Shown here: positions 12,913 through 38,618 of the stretch, one piece after another
How the letters are laid out: the number at the start of each line of letters is the position of its first letter
Numbering within the stretch: the first letter of the stretch is position 1
Source of the DNA: Magnetospirillum sp.
GTDB lineage: Bacteria; Pseudomonadota; Alphaproteobacteria; CACIAM-22H2
Length of the DNA: 64,000 bases
Assembly (NCBI GenBank): GCA_027532905.1
Contig: JAPZUA010000002.1
Span: 682,001 to 746,000, forward strand
Direction of reading: 5' to 3'
Translations under genes and position numbers: made by a program
Notes under the pieces: generated by a model
Seen by the model: only the letters and a program-made list of their open reading frames with translations
What the model was told of the DNA's origin: nothing
Databases searched by the model: none

Positions 12913-14169
12913 ATGTTGGCAGAACAACTCGAACATCGTCCGGCGACGCAGCGCAATATCGACCGGGCCGTGAAGCGCAGCCGCCTGCTCTCCAAAGAAG
13001 GGCTGCAGGAGCGCATGTTTGCGCGACTTTTTTCGGGTCTTGTCTACGCGCAGATTTGGGAAGATCCCGGCATCGATCTCGAGGCGCTGAACCTCGCACC
13101 GGGCGAAGATCTGATCGCCATCGCCTCGGGTGGCTGCAACGTTTTGAGCTACCTGACCGCCGACCCGGCCTCGGTCACGGCCGTCGATCTCAACGGCCAT
13201 CACGTGGCCCTCAATCGGCTGAAAATCGCGGGTGCGCGGCACTTGCCGGACCATGCGGCATTCTTCCGCTTCTTCGGCGCCGCCGACAGTCGCGAGAACA
13301 TGGCCGCCTACGATACGTATTTGCGCCCGCATCTCGACGAAGCCACGCGCCGCTATTGGGACCAGACCGATTGGCGCGGCCGTCGGCGCATCGCGCATTT
13401 CGCGGGCAACATCTACAAAAAGGGCCTGCTCGGGCGCTTCATCGGCGCGGGCCATCTGATCGCGCGCCTTTTCCGCAAGAATCCGCGCAAGATCCTGGCG
13501 GCGACGACGCTTGCCGAGCAGCGCGCAATCTTCGACGCCGAGATGCGGCCGATCTTCCGCTCGCGCCTCGTCTCGTTCCTTGCCGACAATCCTTCGTCGC
13601 TCTACGGCCTCGGCATTCCGCCCGCACAATACAAGTCGCTGCTGTCTTCGGCCCCTGCGGGCAAGGGCATGGCGGCCGTGCTCGAACAGCGGCTCGAACG
13701 GCTCGCCTGCGACTTTCCGATCCGCGAAAACTATTTCGCCTGGCAGGCTTTCGGGCGGCGCTATGCGGGCGACGCCGACAGCGCGGCCCCGCCTTATCTG
13801 GCGGCCGAGAATTTCGTGAAGGTTGCCGAACGCGCGCCGCGCGTCGATGTGCGGCACGCCAATCTGATCGACGTGCTCGAACAGGCCAAACCAGGCAGCT
13901 ACGACGCCTACGTGCTGCTCGATGCGCAAGATTGGATGACGGACGCCGTGCTCGACCGCCTGTGGCGGGCGATCCTGCACAGCGCCAAGCCCGGTGCGCG
14001 CGTGATCTTCCGCACGGCTGCCGAAGAGTCGCTGCTGCCGGGGCGGCTCGACGGCGAAATTCTGAGCCGCTTCGAGTACGACGCGGCGCGCTGCAAGGAA
14101 TGGACGCAGCGCGACCGCTCGGCGATCTATGGCGGTTTCCATCTCTATCGTCTGCGCGGCGTCGCCTGA
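12913..14169 (+). CDS. btaA: S-adenosylmethionine:diacylglycerol 3-amino-3-carboxypropyltransferase (BtaA)
   Basis: 418 residues, the usual BtaA length. It catalyses the first step of betaine-lipid (DGTS) synthesis, transfer of the aminocarboxypropyl group of SAM to diacylglycerol at the membrane. Family landmarks include LVYAQIWEDPGIDLEALNL, the SAM-site segment IASGGCNVLSYL, VTAVDLNGHHVALNRLK, and the C-terminal SYDAYVLLDAQDWM. I chose the ATG at 12,913 because it gives the family N-terminus; the strong AAGGGAGG upstream (about 12,863) is 40 bp away and has no start next to it. The stop shares one base with the btaB start. A possible PHO box lies upstream. Confidence 0.9.
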   Translation: MLAEQLEHRPATQRNIDRAVKRSRLLSKEGLQERMFARLFSGLVYAQIWEDPGIDLEALNLAPGEDLIAIASGGCNVLSYLTADPASVTAVDLNGHHVALNRLKIAGARHLPDHAAFFRFFGAADSRENMAAYDTYLRPHLDEATRRYWDQTDWRGRRRIAHFAGNIYKKGLLGRFIGAGHLIARLFRKNPRKILAATTLAEQRAIFDAEMRPIFRSRLVSFLADNPSSLYGLGIPPAQYKSLLSSAPAGKGMAAVLEQRLERLACDFPIRENYFAWQAFGRRYAGDADSAAPPYLAAENFVKVAERAPRVDVRHANLIDVLEQAKPGSYDAYVLLDAQDWMTDAVLDRLWRAILHSAKPGARVIFRTAAEESLLPGRLDGEILSRFEYDAARCKEWTQRDRSAIYGGFHLYRLRGVA

Positions 14170-14816
14170 TGTCGCAAGCACTTTCCAGCCATGCGGCGGC
14201 GATGGATCGCATCTATCGCTGGCAGCGCGCGTTCTACGACGTCACGCGCAAGCACTATCTTTTGGGCCGCGACCGTCTGATCGCCGATCTCGATCCGCCG
14301 CCGGGCGCAAACGTGCTCGAGATCGGCTGCGGCACCGGGCGCAATCTCATTCTCGCCGCCCGGCGCTATCCGCAAGCGCGCTTCTACGGGATCGATATCA
14401 GCCGGGCGATGCTGGCAACGGCCAACGCGTCGGTGCGCCGAGCGGGTCTGCAGTCGCGCATCGTGTTGGCGCAAGGCGATGCCTCGGCGTTCGACGCGGC
14501 TTCCCTGTTTGGCGTGGCGAAGTTCGAGCGCGTCTTTTGCTCCTACACGCTGTCGATGATCCCGCCCTGGCAGGCGGCGTTGGGGCAGGCGGCGCGCATC
14601 GTGTCGCCGGGCGGCACGTTGTCGGTCGTCGATTTCGGACGCATGGAGAACCTGCCGCGCTGGTTCAAAATGTCGATGCGCGCGTGGCTTGCCAAATTCT
14701 CGGTGACGCCGCGCGCCTCGCTCGGCGATGCGATGGTCCATCTCGATGGTTTCGCGACCGCATCCCATGATCTTTATCGCGGCTATGCGCATTACGTCGT
14801 CGCGCGTGCGCGCTAA
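14169..14816 (+). CDS. btaB: Betaine-lipid N-methyltransferase (BtaB)
   Basis: 215 residues, class I SAM-dependent methyltransferase with VLEIGCGTGRN (motif I), FYGIDISRAML and the post-motif CSYTLSMIPPW. Together with BtaA it would trimethylate diacylglyceryl-homoserine to DGTS, a phosphorus-free membrane lipid. The ATG overlaps the btaA stop (TGATG), a standard btaAB arrangement. The product call rests on the adjacency as much as on the methyltransferase fold, which alone is not substrate-specific. Confidence 0.88.
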   Translation: MSQALSSHAAAMDRIYRWQRAFYDVTRKHYLLGRDRLIADLDPPPGANVLEIGCGTGRNLILAARRYPQARFYGIDISRAMLATANASVRRAGLQSRIVLAQGDASAFDAASLFGVAKFERVFCSYTLSMIPPWQAALGQAARIVSPGGTLSVVDFGRMENLPRWFKMSMRAWLAKFSVTPRASLGDAMVHLDGFATASHDLYRGYAHYVVARAR

Positions 14817-14828
14817 TCGCCGGAATAT

Positions 14829-14890
14829 GTAATTTTACTAGATTTTCTGTTTTGAAGAGAGATACACTCTCCAAAACATAGTAAAATTAC
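14829..14890 (+). promoter_or_regulatory. Paired inverted-repeat sites upstream of zwf, candidate RpiR/HexR-type operator
   Basis: GTAATTTTACTA (14,829-14,840) and TAGTAAAATTAC (14,879-14,890) are perfect 12-bp inverted copies. Each is also internally dyadic (GTAA-N2-TTAC). Between them is a second imperfect stem, TGTTTTGAAGAG with CTCTCCAAAACA. The element ends 26 bp before the zwf ATG. HexR-type regulators bind TGTAAT...ATTACA-like palindromes before zwf/edd. It could also form a large hairpin that terminates btaB transcription. Confidence 0.45.
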
Positions 14891-14916
14891 TTTTCGAGCG
14901 GGGGCTTGGCGCGTCG

Positions 14917-16377
14917 ATGGCACAGATCATTCCGGTTGCTCCGTTCGATTACGTTGTGTTCGGCGGTACGGGCGATCTTGCGACCCGCAAATTGCTGCCG
15001 GCCTTGTTCCATCGCGATTACGACGGCCAGATCCCGGCGGAGGCGCGCATCTTTGCGATCTCGCGCAAGGATTTCGACGCACCGGCCTATGTCGCGTTCG
15101 TGAAGTCGGCGCTCGGTTCCAGTTTGGACGGCGCCGACGCCGCGGCCGTGTGGCAGCGATTTGCAGCACGCCTGCACCATGTGACGCTCGATGCCCAGAG
15201 CGATACTGGCTGGGAGCGGTTGCAAGCGGCATTGGGGCCGCCGAACGGCCATGTGCGCGTGTTCTATCTGGCGACGTCGCCGCAATTTTACGGCCCGATC
15301 GCGCGCCGTTTGGGGCAAGCGGGGCTTGCGGGCGGCGATGCGCGCCTCGTCGTCGAAAAGCCGATTGGCAGCGATCTTGCGAGTGCGCGCCGCATCAACG
15401 ACGACATCGGTGCCGTGTTCGCCGAGAGCCAGATTTACCGCATCGACCATTATCTCGGTAAAGAGGCGGTGCAGAATCTGATCGCGATGCGCTTTGCCAA
15501 CTCGCTGTTCGAGCCCTTGTGGAACTCGCTGTGGATCGACCATGTGCAGATCACGGTCGCCGAAACGGTCGGGCTCGAGGGACGTGCGGGCTATTACGAC
15601 ACGGCCGGTGCGGTGCGCGACATGGTGCAGAACCATTTGCTGCAGCTCACTTGCCTTGTCGCGATGGAACCGCCGCAGACGCTGAGTGCGGACGCGGTGC
15701 GCGACGAGAAGCTCAAGATATTGCGTGCCCTCGATGCGCTCGGCGACGGTGCGGTTGTGCGCGGCCAGTACGGGGCAGGGGCCATCGCCGGCGCGGCCGT
15801 GCCGGGCTATGCACAAGAGCTCGCCACGGGTGCGCCGAGCCGCACCGAGACCTTCGTGGCGATGCGCCTTGGAATTGCCAATTGGCGCTGGGCGGGCGTG
15901 CCGTTCTATTTGCGCACCGGCAAGCGCATGGCGCGCAAGACGTCCGAGATCGTCGTGCAGTTCAAGCCTGTGCCGCATTCGATCTTCGGAGCAGGGGCGG
16001 GCTTGCTTGCCAACCGCCTGGTCGTGCGCCTGCAACCCGACGAGGGCATCACGCTGCGCCTGATGACCAAAGAGCCCGGCCCCGGCGGCTTGCGCTTGCG
16101 CTCGGTGCCGCTCGATCTGAGCTTCGCCGATACGTTCTCGACCCGCTTTCCCGAGGCCTATGAGCGGCTGCTGATGGATGTTGTGCGCGGCAATCCCACT
16201 CTGTTTATGCGTCGCGACGAGGTCGAGGCGGCGTGGTCGTGGATTGGCCCTGCGATCCTCGCCTGGGAGCGCGGCAGCGAGGCGCCGAAGAGCTATGTCG
16301 CGGGCGGCTGGGGTCCGGCGGCGGCGACCGCTTTGATCGAGCGCGACGGCCGAACCTGGCACGAGGAGCTCGCCTGA
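14917..16377 (+). CDS. zwf: Glucose-6-phosphate 1-dehydrogenase
   Basis: 486 residues, normal length. Oxidises glucose-6-phosphate to 6-phosphogluconolactone with NAD(P). The cofactor motif [15 protein letters not shown] is at the N-terminus, VEKPIGSDL in the middle, and the substrate-site signature RIDHYLGKE is intact, as is FYLRTGKRM. It is the first gene of a zwf-edd-rpiR-greB run with overlapping ends, feeding the Entner-Doudoroff route. A 6-phosphogluconolactonase gene (pgl), often between zwf and edd, is absent here. Probably controlled by the RpiR-family regulator two genes downstream through the upstream GTAA/TTAC sites. Confidence 0.95.
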
Positions 16378-18188
16378 TGGTCTATTCCGTCATCGCCGAC
16401 ATCACCGCCAAGATCGTCGCGCGCAGTGCCAAGAGCCGGGCGGCCTATTTGGCGCAGCTCGACAAACACGCGCAGCAGGGCCCGCGTCGTTTCGGTCTCG
16501 GCTGCGCCAATCTCGCACACGGCTTTGCCGCGTGCCCGAGCGACGACAAGGCGGCTCTCAAGGGCCAACCTGTGCCGAACATCGCGATCGTGTCGGCCTA
16601 CAACGACATGCTCTCGGCCCACCAACCGCTCGAAACCTATCCGGCCGCGATCAAGGAGGCGGTACGCGCGGCCGGTGCCGTGGCGCAATTTGCGGGTGGT
16701 GTACCCGCGATGTGCGACGGGGTCACGCAAGGTGCGCCCGGCATGGAATTGTCGCTGTTCAGCCGCGACACGATCGCGCTTTCGACCGCGATCGCACTGT
16801 CGCACGACATGTTCGATGCCGTGCTGTGTCTCGGCGTGTGCGACAAGATCGTGCCGGGGCTTGTGATGGGGGCACTCAGCTACGGCCATCTGCCGTGCAT
16901 CTTCATTCCCGCCGGTCCGATGACCTCGGGCCTCGGCAATTCCGAAAAGTCGCGCATTCGCCAGCTCTATGCCGAAGGCAAAGTCGATCGCGCGGCCCTG
17001 CTCGAAGCGGAATCGTCCGCCTATCATGGGCCGGGAACCTGCACCTTCTACGGCACTGCGAATTCGAACCAATTGCTGATGGAGGCCATGGGCCTGCATC
17101 TGCCCGGTGCGACCTTCCACAATCCGGGCACGCCGATGCGCGAGGCCTTCACGCGGGCCGCCGCCATGCGCGCGGTCGAACTTGCGAAGACCAAGACGCT
17201 GCCGATGGGCCGCATGATCGACGCGCGCTCGTTCGTGAACGCGATCGTGGCGTTGCTTGCGACCGGCGGATCGACGAACCACACGATCCATCTGATCGCG
17301 ATGGCGCGCGTGGCCGGCATCCAGCTCAATTGGGACGATTTCGACGCAGCCTCGCAGATCGTGCCGCTTTTGACGCGCATCTACCCAAATGGCTCGGCCG
17401 ACGTGAACCATTTCCAGGCGGCCGGCGGCATCGGATTCCTGATCCGCGAACTGCTTGCGGCCGGTCTTCTGCATGAAGACGTTGCGACCGTCGCAGGCCA
17501 AGGCTTGGGCGCCTACGCGACCGAAGCGCGGCTTGAGGCAGGCAATCTCGCTTGGGGGCCGTGTCCTGCCGCCAGTGCCGACGAAAAAGTGCTGCGCCCG
17601 GTCGCCCGGCCGTTCGACGCGCATGGCGGCCTCAAAACCCTGTCGGGCAATCTTGGGCGTGCGGTGGTCAAGGTCTCGGCCGTGGCACCCGCCCACCAGC
17701 GGATCGATGCGCCTGCGCGCGTGTTCGCAAGCCAGAAGGCGCTGCAGACGGCCTTCGACGCAGGCGAACTGGTTGGCGATTTCGTCGCGGTCGTGCGCTT
17801 CCAGGGCCCGCGCGCCAACGGCATGCCGGAATTGCACAAGCTCACGCCGGTCTTGGGCATTCTGCAGGATCGCGGCCAACGCGTAGCACTGCTCACCGAC
17901 GGGCGCATGTCAGGCGCTTCGGGCAAGGTTCTGGCGGCGATTCATCTGTCGCCCGAAGCAATGGCGGGCGGCTTGATCGCGCGCATTTGCGACGGCGACA
18001 GGATCCGGATCGACACGCAAGCCGGCACGATCGATTTGGACGTGTCGCAGGAAATATTGGCGGCACGCGTGCCCGCCACGGCTGAGCCTGGCAGTGATGT
18101 GGGCTACGGGCGCGAATTGTTCGGCGGGTTTCGCCAACTCGTCGGATCGGCCGACCAAGGTGCGAGCATCGTCGCTCCATGCATGTGA
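16377..18188 (+). CDS. edd: 6-phosphogluconate dehydratase
   Basis: 603 residues, the family's usual size. It converts 6-phosphogluconate to KDPG, the committed Entner-Doudoroff step. Iron-sulfur-cluster and active-site signatures of the IlvD/Edd family are present: [24 protein letters not shown] and [23 protein letters not shown] sits in the C-terminal part. The ATG overlaps the zwf stop by one base. The final codons overlap the start of the RpiR regulator by 10 bp. KDPG aldolase (eda) is not in the window. Confidence 0.95.
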
Positions 18189-19024
18189 GCGTGGTCGACG
18201 CACTGCGCGCGCATATGCGCACCTTGCCGCGCCAGGAGGCGGCCGTCGCGCGTGCGATCTTGGCCGACCCTGGTGCGAGCCTGCACATCGCGATCGCTTC
18301 TTTGGCGCGCAACGCCAATGTGAGCCAGCCGACCGTGCTGCGGCTGTGCCGTACGCTCGGCTATGCCGGGTTCCCCGAGTTCAAAGTAGCGCTGGCGCAA
18401 AGCCTCGTGCCGAGCGGCTATGCCTATGTAAGTGCGCATGTGGCTGCCGGCGACGATGCGGCCGCCTATGCGCCCAAAGTGCTCGACGCGACGATCGCGG
18501 CCTTGCGGCGGTCGCGCGACAATGTCGATACGAGTGCTGTCGCTGCCGTCGTCGCGTGTTTTGCGGCGAGCCGTCAGATTCTGGTGGCGGGGTTCGGCGG
18601 CTCGAGCGCGACGGCGGCCGACGCCGTGCATAAGCTCGGCCGTTTTCCGATCCCGTGCCGAGCGCTTGGCGACCCCATCCTGGCGTCGATGGCGATCGAA
18701 GCGGCGGGTGCTGGCGACGTGCTGTTCCTCTTGTCCAACAGCGGCAAGACGGTGGCGATGCTCGAACTGGCCGAGCAGGCGCGCGCGCGCAAGCTTGCGT
18801 GCGTCGCGTTGACGGCCCCGGGCTCGCCGCTCGCCGCGCGCGCCGACATTGCCATTCTGGCCGAACCGACCGAGGATACGGCGATGTTCACACCGATGGC
18901 CTCGCGCATCGTGCATTTGGGCTTGATCGACGTGCTCGCAACCGGGCTCGCACTGCATTTGGGCGCGGCGGGCCAGGATGCGCTTGCGCGCGTCAAAGGT
19001 GCGGTTGCACGCACGCGCGCATGA
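18179..19024 (+). CDS. RpiR-family transcriptional regulator (HexR-like), HTH plus SIS domain
   Basis: 281 residues. The N-terminal HTH (about residues 1-75) includes [20 protein letters not shown]; the SIS sugar-phosphate-binding domain (about 120-260) includes [18 protein letters not shown] and [14 protein letters not shown]. From family and context it is expected to sense KDPG or another sugar phosphate and repress zwf-edd, as HexR does. The start overlaps the end of edd, and the stop overlaps greB (ATGA), so it autoregulates if the zwf promoter is its own. Calling it HexR is inference; other RpiR proteins have the same architecture. Confidence 0.85.
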
Positions 19025-31064: not shown

Positions 31065-31463
31065 ATGCCCCTTTTGCAGTCGCTGCGTGCGTCTCGGATC
31101 AAAAACGGCCATGGGAATGCCGACTCCACGATGGACTACGCGCGGTCGACGTCGAGAAACAGTTCCGGCGCGCGCCCCCTTGATGGGCTGGCCGGGCGCG
31201 GTCGGCAAGGCAAAGTCCTGACGCGCGGACGGGGGCGCAAATCTGCCTACGAATGTATTGAAATCACACCGCGTTCAGTTTGGATCGGTGGGCGGCGCAC
31301 GTCGATTCGCCTCGAGCCGGAGTTTTGGGAGGCGCTTTCCTACATTGCAAAGCGCGAAGCAACCGATCCGCCGGGCGTGTTGCTGGAAATCGAGCGAATC
31401 CACGGACGTAGCCGATTCGCATCGAAAGTCCGCGTTGCGATTCTGAACTATTTCCGACCCTGA
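31065..31463 (+). CDS. Ribbon-helix-helix (RHH_4-type) DNA-binding protein
   Basis: 132 residues if started at 31,065, where AAGGA sits 9 bp upstream; an ATG at 31,056 abuts that site directly and is less likely. The C-terminal 65 residues carry the RHH_4 signature: RSVWIGGRRTSIRLEPEFWE, AKREATDPPGVLLEIE and SRFASKVRVAILNYFR. The N-terminal 60 residues are basic and Ser/Gly-rich, probably disordered, so the true start could be further in. RHH_4 proteins are small alphaproteobacterial DNA-binding proteins of mostly unknown target. Confidence 0.75.
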   Translation: MPLLQSLRASRIKNGHGNADSTMDYARSTSRNSSGARPLDGLAGRGRQGKVLTRGRGRKSAYECIEITPRSVWIGGRRTSIRLEPEFWEALSYIAKREATDPPGVLLEIERIHGRSRFASKVRVAILNYFRP

Positions 31464-37618: not shown

Positions 37619-38618
37619 TGATCTCGGCGACGGCCGCGTTGTTCTTGTCCATCATCGGCAGATGGCTGTTGCCGAGGATGCCGAGCTGCGGCAGGTCGAT
37701 CGCCTCGGCAGCGCCGCCGGCGGCCCGCAGCGCTTCGAGATAGCGCAGGCCGTTGCCCTTGATGGCGGGCCAGCGGGCATCCTGGTCGATGAAATCGCCG
37801 TAGACGGAAGCGACCGGCACGCCAGCGAGGCTCGCGGCCTTGGCCGGATCGCCGAAGCCTGCGGGCTCGATCGCCACGATCGCGCGCACCTTTGTGGGCA
37901 GCGTTTCGGCGACGCGAAAGGCGAATTGCGCGCCTTGCGCATGGGCCAGCAGCACGCACGGGCAGATGCGCTCGGCCAACGCCACATAGGCCGCGAGTAC
38001 GGCGGCGTCGGTCGTTGTCCAGCGGGGCACAAATTGTTTGGCGAACGCGTCGTAATATTCGACCGGGAACTGCGTGCCTTCGAGCGCTTCGCGCTTCGCG
38101 TAGGTGCCGGGGCCGCCGCCGATGCGGAAGCGCTCGAACGGCTCGGGCTTGGCGAGAAACACGGGCTCGCCCGCGAACACCAGCGGCGACTGCGCGAAGC
38201 CCGCCCGACCGCGCTCGACCGCGTCGGCGTTGTAGACGGGCCAGCCCCGGCGCAGAAAGAAATTGAGCCAGCCTTCGCGCCCGTCGGGCGTGGTTTCGAA
38301 GGCAACGCCGGTCATGCCGCCGCCATGCATCAGCAGCAAGGGCACGTCGCTGCGCACGGCGGCGGGCACGAAATACTGCACATAGGCATGTTCGACCGCG
38401 AACACGCCGTTGGGATCGATGCGCGCGACGGGGCCTCCAGGTGCCACCGGCGTTTCGCGCACCGGCTGGCCTGAAATCGCGACATCGCGCCCGCCGACAT
38501 GGAACGAGCCCATCTCTGCCAACCGGATCGGTCCGTCGATGCTGGGGGCAGGGGCGCCGCCGCAGGCCGCAAGGAGAGCGGTCAGTGCGATCACGGCGAG
38601 TGTCGAAAAACTGCGCAT
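37581..38618 (-). CDS. Lipoprotein alpha/beta-hydrolase-fold protein lacking the nucleophile Ser
   Basis: 345 residues. A lipoprotein signal (MRSFSTLAVIALTALLAACG) predicts lipidation at the Cys, so it acts in the periplasm. The fold signature LLLMHGGGMTGVAFETTPDG resembles the large bacterial esterases of the 1QLW (esterase 713) type. The nucleophile elbow reads LLAHAQGAQFAF: the position normally held by Ser (HSQG) is Ala. The C-terminal GNSHLPMMDKN contains a possible catalytic His. It is either inactive or binds substrate without hydrolysis. Start chosen at the lipobox-bearing ATG. Last gene of the pseudokinase operon, 4 bp after its neighbour. Confidence 0.75.
   Translation of the reverse strand: MRSFSTLAVIALTALLAACGGAPAPSIDGPIRLAEMGSFHVGGRDVAISGQPVRETPVAPGGPVARIDPNGVFAVEHAYVQYFVPAAVRSDVPLLLMHGGGMTGVAFETTPDGREGWLNFFLRRGWPVYNADAVERGRAGFAQSPLVFAGEPVFLAKPEPFERFRIGGGPGTYAKREALEGTQFPVEYYDAFAKQFVPRWTTTDAAVLAAYVALAERICPCVLLAHAQGAQFAFRVAETLPTKVRAIVAIEPAGFGDPAKAASLAGVPVASVYGDFIDQDARWPAIKGNGLRYLEALRAAGGAAEAIDLPQLGILGNSHLPMMDKNNAAVAEIINRWLAARGLWR

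Follow-up and report, generated by a model that had tools for sequence, protein, structure and literature searches.

The excerpted text of PMC4344238 describes the transcriptional regulator HexR from beta- and gammaproteobacteria, while excerpts of PMC5507952 describe HexR for gammaproteobacteria and a second regulator, CceR, for the Rhodobacteraceae. As is proposed for the system considered here, CceR controls central carbon genes of the zwf and edd kind in alphaproteobacteria, but it is an unrelated protein of the LacI family which senses 6-phosphogluconate (PMC5507952, in excerpt). Closer parallels are found in the HexR regulon of beta- and gammaproteobacteria (excerpts of PMC5343134 and PMC5902321), which shares with the present locus the targets zwf and edd and a linked regulator gene; paired sites were also seen in the HexR loci analysed. 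There are also differences. The hexR gene of Pseudomonas is transcribed divergently from zwf-pgl-eda (excerpt of PMC5902321) whereas here zwf-edd-hexR form one operon, without pgl or eda, and a single target is visible by motif. Moreover, the consensus TTGT-N7/8-ACAA given for P. putida in that literature has a different spacing from the sites described below. A further relative, RccR of Pseudomonas fluorescens, is a KDPG-binding protein of the RpiR family for which KDPG lowers the affinity for 15-bp sites. It resembles the present case in that two 15-bp sites of the TGTAGT-N3-ACTACA type lie tens of base pairs apart before aceE, but it differs in targeting pyruvate and glyoxylate genes, in a separation of 68 bp and in also using 28-bp sites (PMC5489143, in excerpt). 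No description of an alphaproteobacterial HexR operator was found in the literature searched, most subscription papers and RegPrecise lying outside its scope. With its clear operator pair, the locus described here very probably extends the HexR-type switch, a familiar one, to a less studied bacterial branch, the alphaproteobacteria of the Rhodospirillales type; in other respects this is ordinary sugar-catabolism regulation.

The window, by which we mean the whole 64-kb stretch of DNA analysed, carries three tightly packed genes on the forward strand. The first, zwf, encoding glucose-6-phosphate dehydrogenase (14917..16377; TIGR00871, 561 bits against a cut-off of 400.6), is followed by edd, encoding phosphogluconate dehydratase (16377..18188; TIGR01196, 951 bits against a cut-off of 708), with a start, assigned from the reading frame, that overlaps the zwf stop. 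The third gene, for a HexR-like regulator of the RpiR family (18179..19024; domains PF01418 HTH_6 and PF01380 SIS), overlaps the end of edd with its start. Upstream, and on the same strand, lies a methyltransferase gene (14166..14816; PF13649 and relatives), for which the original prediction used the name btaB. The repeat studied here occupies the AT-rich gap of 100 bp between the stop of this gene (14816) and the start of zwf (14917), and the gap has a G+C content of 41% as against 65% for the window. A sigma-70 scan detected no promoter-like site, and a search for similarity to plasmids gave no match. A KDPG aldolase of the eda family (PF01081) is encoded at G000:C4:406797-407378, on another contig than zwf and edd.

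The repeat was confirmed: as in the original prediction, two perfect 12-bp inverted copies, spaced by 50 bp, flank a second imperfect stem. The arms, GTAATTTTACTA at 14829-14840 and its exact reverse complement TAGTAAAATTAC at 14879-14890, show the 50-bp spacing when measured from start to start and, if mismatches are allowed, they lengthen to 18 nt each with 89% complementarity. The inner stem pairs 14848-14859 with 14867-14878 (span 14848..14878, unstranded) over 12 nt with 92% complementarity. Over 64 kb it is not unusual to meet perfect inverted pairs of 12 bp: with loops of up to 100 bp the window holds two, and at least one occurred in 85 of 100 Markov-1 sequences (mean 2.68). The second pair of the window, TTCGAGCGCTTC at 38079-38138, accords with chance expectation. 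Within shuffles of the 100-bp gap upstream of zwf such a pair arose twice in 20,000, and the 12-mer has only three matches genome-wide at one mismatch or fewer, two of which are the arms themselves, both exact. What argues more strongly against chance is that the repeat is conserved in relatives and resembles HexR sites.

Each arm forms the core of its own 15-bp pseudo-palindrome, TGTAATTTTACTAGA on the left (14828..14842, + strand) and, as read on the + strand, CATAGTAAAATTACT on the right (14877..14891, - strand), the methyltransferase gene ending 12 bp before the left one. These predicted HexR-type operators are inverted relative to one another and their starts are 49 bp apart. The arms resemble a HexR-like consensus, a 15-bp site of the TGTARTNNNAYTACA type which we take to be that of HexR; Leyn 2011 reportedly defined the HexR regulon. 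Relative to the TGTARTNNNAYTACA-type site near zwf, edd and hexR, 11 of the 12 specified positions are matched on the left and 9 of 12 on the right. Moreover, the left site is a single base away from TGTAATTTTACTACA, a sequence found beside the HexR genes of Marinomonas and one other gammaproteobacterium.

The likeness was quantified with a position weight matrix (PWM) derived from 25 of 52 beta- and gammaproteobacterial HexR loci, which contributed 26 distinct sites and no alphaproteobacterial sequence, each training site agreeing with this consensus at 11 or more of 12 positions. In the window the left and right sites rank first and second, with scores of 21.35 and 13.11. The third-best match, TGTATTGAAATCACA at 31254-31268, scores 11.06 and falls inside the range of chance maxima. 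Among 30 Markov-1 sequences of 64 kb the highest maximum was 14.68, and the left site thus exceeds all 30, while two of the 30 maxima exceed the right site, which by itself is within the chance maxima for 64 kb. A check that is free of the consensus used the 12-mer of the window itself: at one mismatch or fewer it gave 50 matches in the 52 HexR loci, covering 13 of their 17 genera or groups, and none of 200 permuted 12-mers reached this number (mean 4.1, maximum 17). The full motif, with one mismatch, occurs at four places in its own genome as against nine for a reversed-pattern control, and one match, on contig C6, falls inside a frame read by eye as tyrosyl-tRNA synthetase; we therefore claim no wider regulon.

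Phylogenetic footprinting of the zwf upstream regions, which had been suggested with the original prediction, revealed the motif in relatives. Both 15-mers are invariant at 15 of 15 positions in G000, G002 and G003, compared with 15 of the 30 bases upstream of them and 21 of the 34 in the spacer, these three genomes being close relatives and not independent. In the more diverged G007, with a regulator 65% identical, two weaker sites are present and the 49-bp spacing is retained, so that this spacing is common to four genomes of the genus. Of the 23 zwf matches collected, L016 and L023, which have no 5' end, were dropped, leaving 21 rows for comparison. The best upstream scores at the six loci with a close HexR-like gene, three of which are from near-identical relatives, were 21.1, 21.1, 21.1, 14.7, 13.6 and 7.8, whereas the 15 loci without one ranged from -13.0 to 9.0, absence here signifying no match at 50% identity or above; distant RpiR proteins of 29-39% occur in some of the latter group (G005, G010, G016, G022 and G059). 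The exception is G008, where a HexR-like gene adjoins zwf and the site is weak, its score of 7.8 being equalled in 127 of 1000 shuffles. Within the same genus, G004, G005, G009 and G010 carry zwf without a linked HexR-like gene, without operators and with other upstream sequence; the regulator and its sites are present or absent as a unit inside a single genus. Among more distant alphaproteobacteria with the gene, a single site precedes zwf in G179 and G269, while two sites lie 62 bp apart before zwf in G338 and 52 bp apart in each of G036, G164 and L050, and three weaker sites each precede zwf in G278 and G189.

Taken on this sequence evidence, the nested inverted repeat is very likely a pair of 15-bp HexR-type operators before zwf-edd-hexR and not an RNA hairpin or terminator. 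The original suggestion of an operator for an RpiR or HexR protein is strongly supported by the PWM, the footprint, the co-occurrence with the HexR-like gene and the 12-mer test, but its geometry is to be revised, with one operator in each arm.

The operon does encode an RpiR/SIS regulator (281 aa), as originally noted, with an N-terminal HTH_6 domain (PF01418, 5.1e-19) and a C-terminal SIS domain (PF01380, 2.8e-13). Its best NCBIfam model is HexR (PRK11302) at 257 bits, the next model reaching 166, and all seven members of set A1 match the HexR model. We use the label HexR-like because 257 bits is below the cut-off of 296, and the protein is a diverged HexR-like protein rather than a model-certified HexR. 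The cut-off is passed by L074, L052, L094, L100 and L069, while L168 fails at 293.9; the proteins above it are gammaproteobacterial together with one from Azospirillum. In a tree of 37 rows, hand-picked from the loci, the regulator falls in an alphaproteobacterial clade (100/98) that is joined to gammaproteobacterial HexR (89/85). It is not grouped with PaRccR, and the fork on the RccR side, which includes betaproteobacterial rows, is poorly resolved.

Of the nine KDPG contacts of P. aeruginosa RccR listed in the excerpted PMC10810197, seven are identical in the regulator, the changes being S188 to T191 and H164 to I167, and gammaproteobacterial HexR rows also carry L or M at the position equivalent to H164. 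Two DNA-recognition arginines are kept; for P. putida HexR, Arg-54 and Arg-57 have been proposed to contact DNA (PMC5902321, in excerpt), and they would correspond to R55 and R58 of the regulator, an assignment made by motif through the RccR alignment. In the literature searched, Arg54 and Ser140 gave no match. Relatives of the regulator in the PDB are 8ju9 and 8k3b, which on account of PMC10810197 are taken to be P. aeruginosa RccR, the entry code being absent from the excerpted text.

A mechanism can be proposed in which the HexR-like protein, the product of the third gene, would bind each 15-bp site as a dimer and repress zwf-edd-hexR and hence its own synthesis. The right site may overlie the -10 region, a possible -10 element, TAAAAT, having been picked out by eye inside it (14882..14887, + strand). 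When the Entner-Doudoroff pathway is active, KDPG would bind to the SIS domain and lower DNA binding, such that KDPG made via Edd would relieve repression in a feedback loop. The sites, their likeness to HexR sites, their conservation and the linkage of the regulator are computational results. Binding, repression and the effector KDPG are proposed by analogy with HexR in Pseudomonas, as treated in the excerpts of PMC5489143 and PMC5902321, and the choice of KDPG is also suggested by the conserved residues and the neighbouring edd.

The two sites may, in addition, be bound cooperatively, either by two dimers or by a tetramer, looping or bending the 34-bp spacer which would hold the promoter. 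We regard this as a reasonable possibility that falls somewhat short of an even chance. Retention of the 49-bp spacing across four genomes of the genus, even in the diverged G007, speaks in its favour, as do paired sites recurring at 51-52, 62 and 70-73 bp in other HexR loci. According to excerpts of the RccR literature, binding to the aceE pair 68 bp apart appeared cooperative, with indications of bending (PMC5489143), and an RccR-KDPG crystal was tetrameric (PMC10810197), and cooperation is plausible by analogy with this case. However, the spacings show no significant agreement with helical phase (12 arrangements grouped by hand, R 0.46, p 0.075 at 10.5 bp, a score equalled by 9% of random sets), and G179 and G269 manage with a single site. 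The compact two-site promoter would be one in which cooperative binding of an RpiR-family protein could be measured.

The alternative that the nested stem folds as RNA, in the zwf leader or in a btaB-zwf transcript, and there stops transcription or shields or stabilises an end, appears very improbable. The region 14820-14900 does fold well, at -24.8 kcal/mol with a z of -5.78 that none of 200 dinucleotide shuffles equalled, and folds better than those of mononucleotide shuffles are likewise predicted in G003 (z -3.7), G002 (-3.6), G007 (-3.2) and G036 (-3.5). An outer stem is expected in any case, because any pseudo-palindromic site that is present twice will pair with its second copy. Other relatives that bear sites show no special fold (z -0.2 in G164, -0.8 in G338, 0.0 in both G179 and G269), and the last two have one site only. 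Moreover, pairing in the inner stem, the one part that does not follow from the operators, erodes from 11 of 12 here to 10 of 12 in G002, with G-U pairs counted, and 7 of 12 in G003, and this stem is probably not functional as RNA but a promoter spacer. The strong terminator between btaB and zwf that was originally envisaged fared no better. A scan of 14600-15100 found no intrinsic terminator, with its G+C-rich stem and trailing T run, where shuffles give 0.7, and only four T follow the stem; in G007 the upstream gene runs the opposite way and therefore no upstream transcript would end there. A terminator or RNA element was rejected as the main reading on these grounds: the lack of a terminator-like site, the erosion of the inner stem and the relatives that have a single site or no fold. 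Still less probable is that the sites belong to another regulator such as the second RpiR-family paralog of the genome (G000:C1:1289713-1290531, L150), which is 36% identical and scores 248 bits with the HexR model, but carries A and Q in place of the KDPG-contact serine and histidine at S139 and H148 and is present in G005 where the linked gene and the site are both absent, the sites following the linked HexR-like gene.

Returning to the pair of HexR-type operators, a wider generalisation is conceivable, although we consider it rather unlikely as a whole. In Rhodospirillales and relatives, a HexR-like branch would control the Entner-Doudoroff operon via a promoter-bracketing double operator, bound cooperatively by a KDPG-sensitive tetramer, with the palindrome of Azospirillum shifted to TGAAGA...TCTTCA. 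If true, an autoregulated HexR circuit of local reach would exist in a class where CceR is the HexR counterpart described so far. The Azospirillum HexR loci yielded no good matches, and a shift of operator motif on this branch is possible from the sequences. In the Azospirillum edd-hexR gaps (L069:7740-7810, L056:7831-7850 and others), palindromes of the TGAAGAAGATTTTCTTCA type occur instead of TGTAAT sites, and L069 carries two of them, 52 bp apart.
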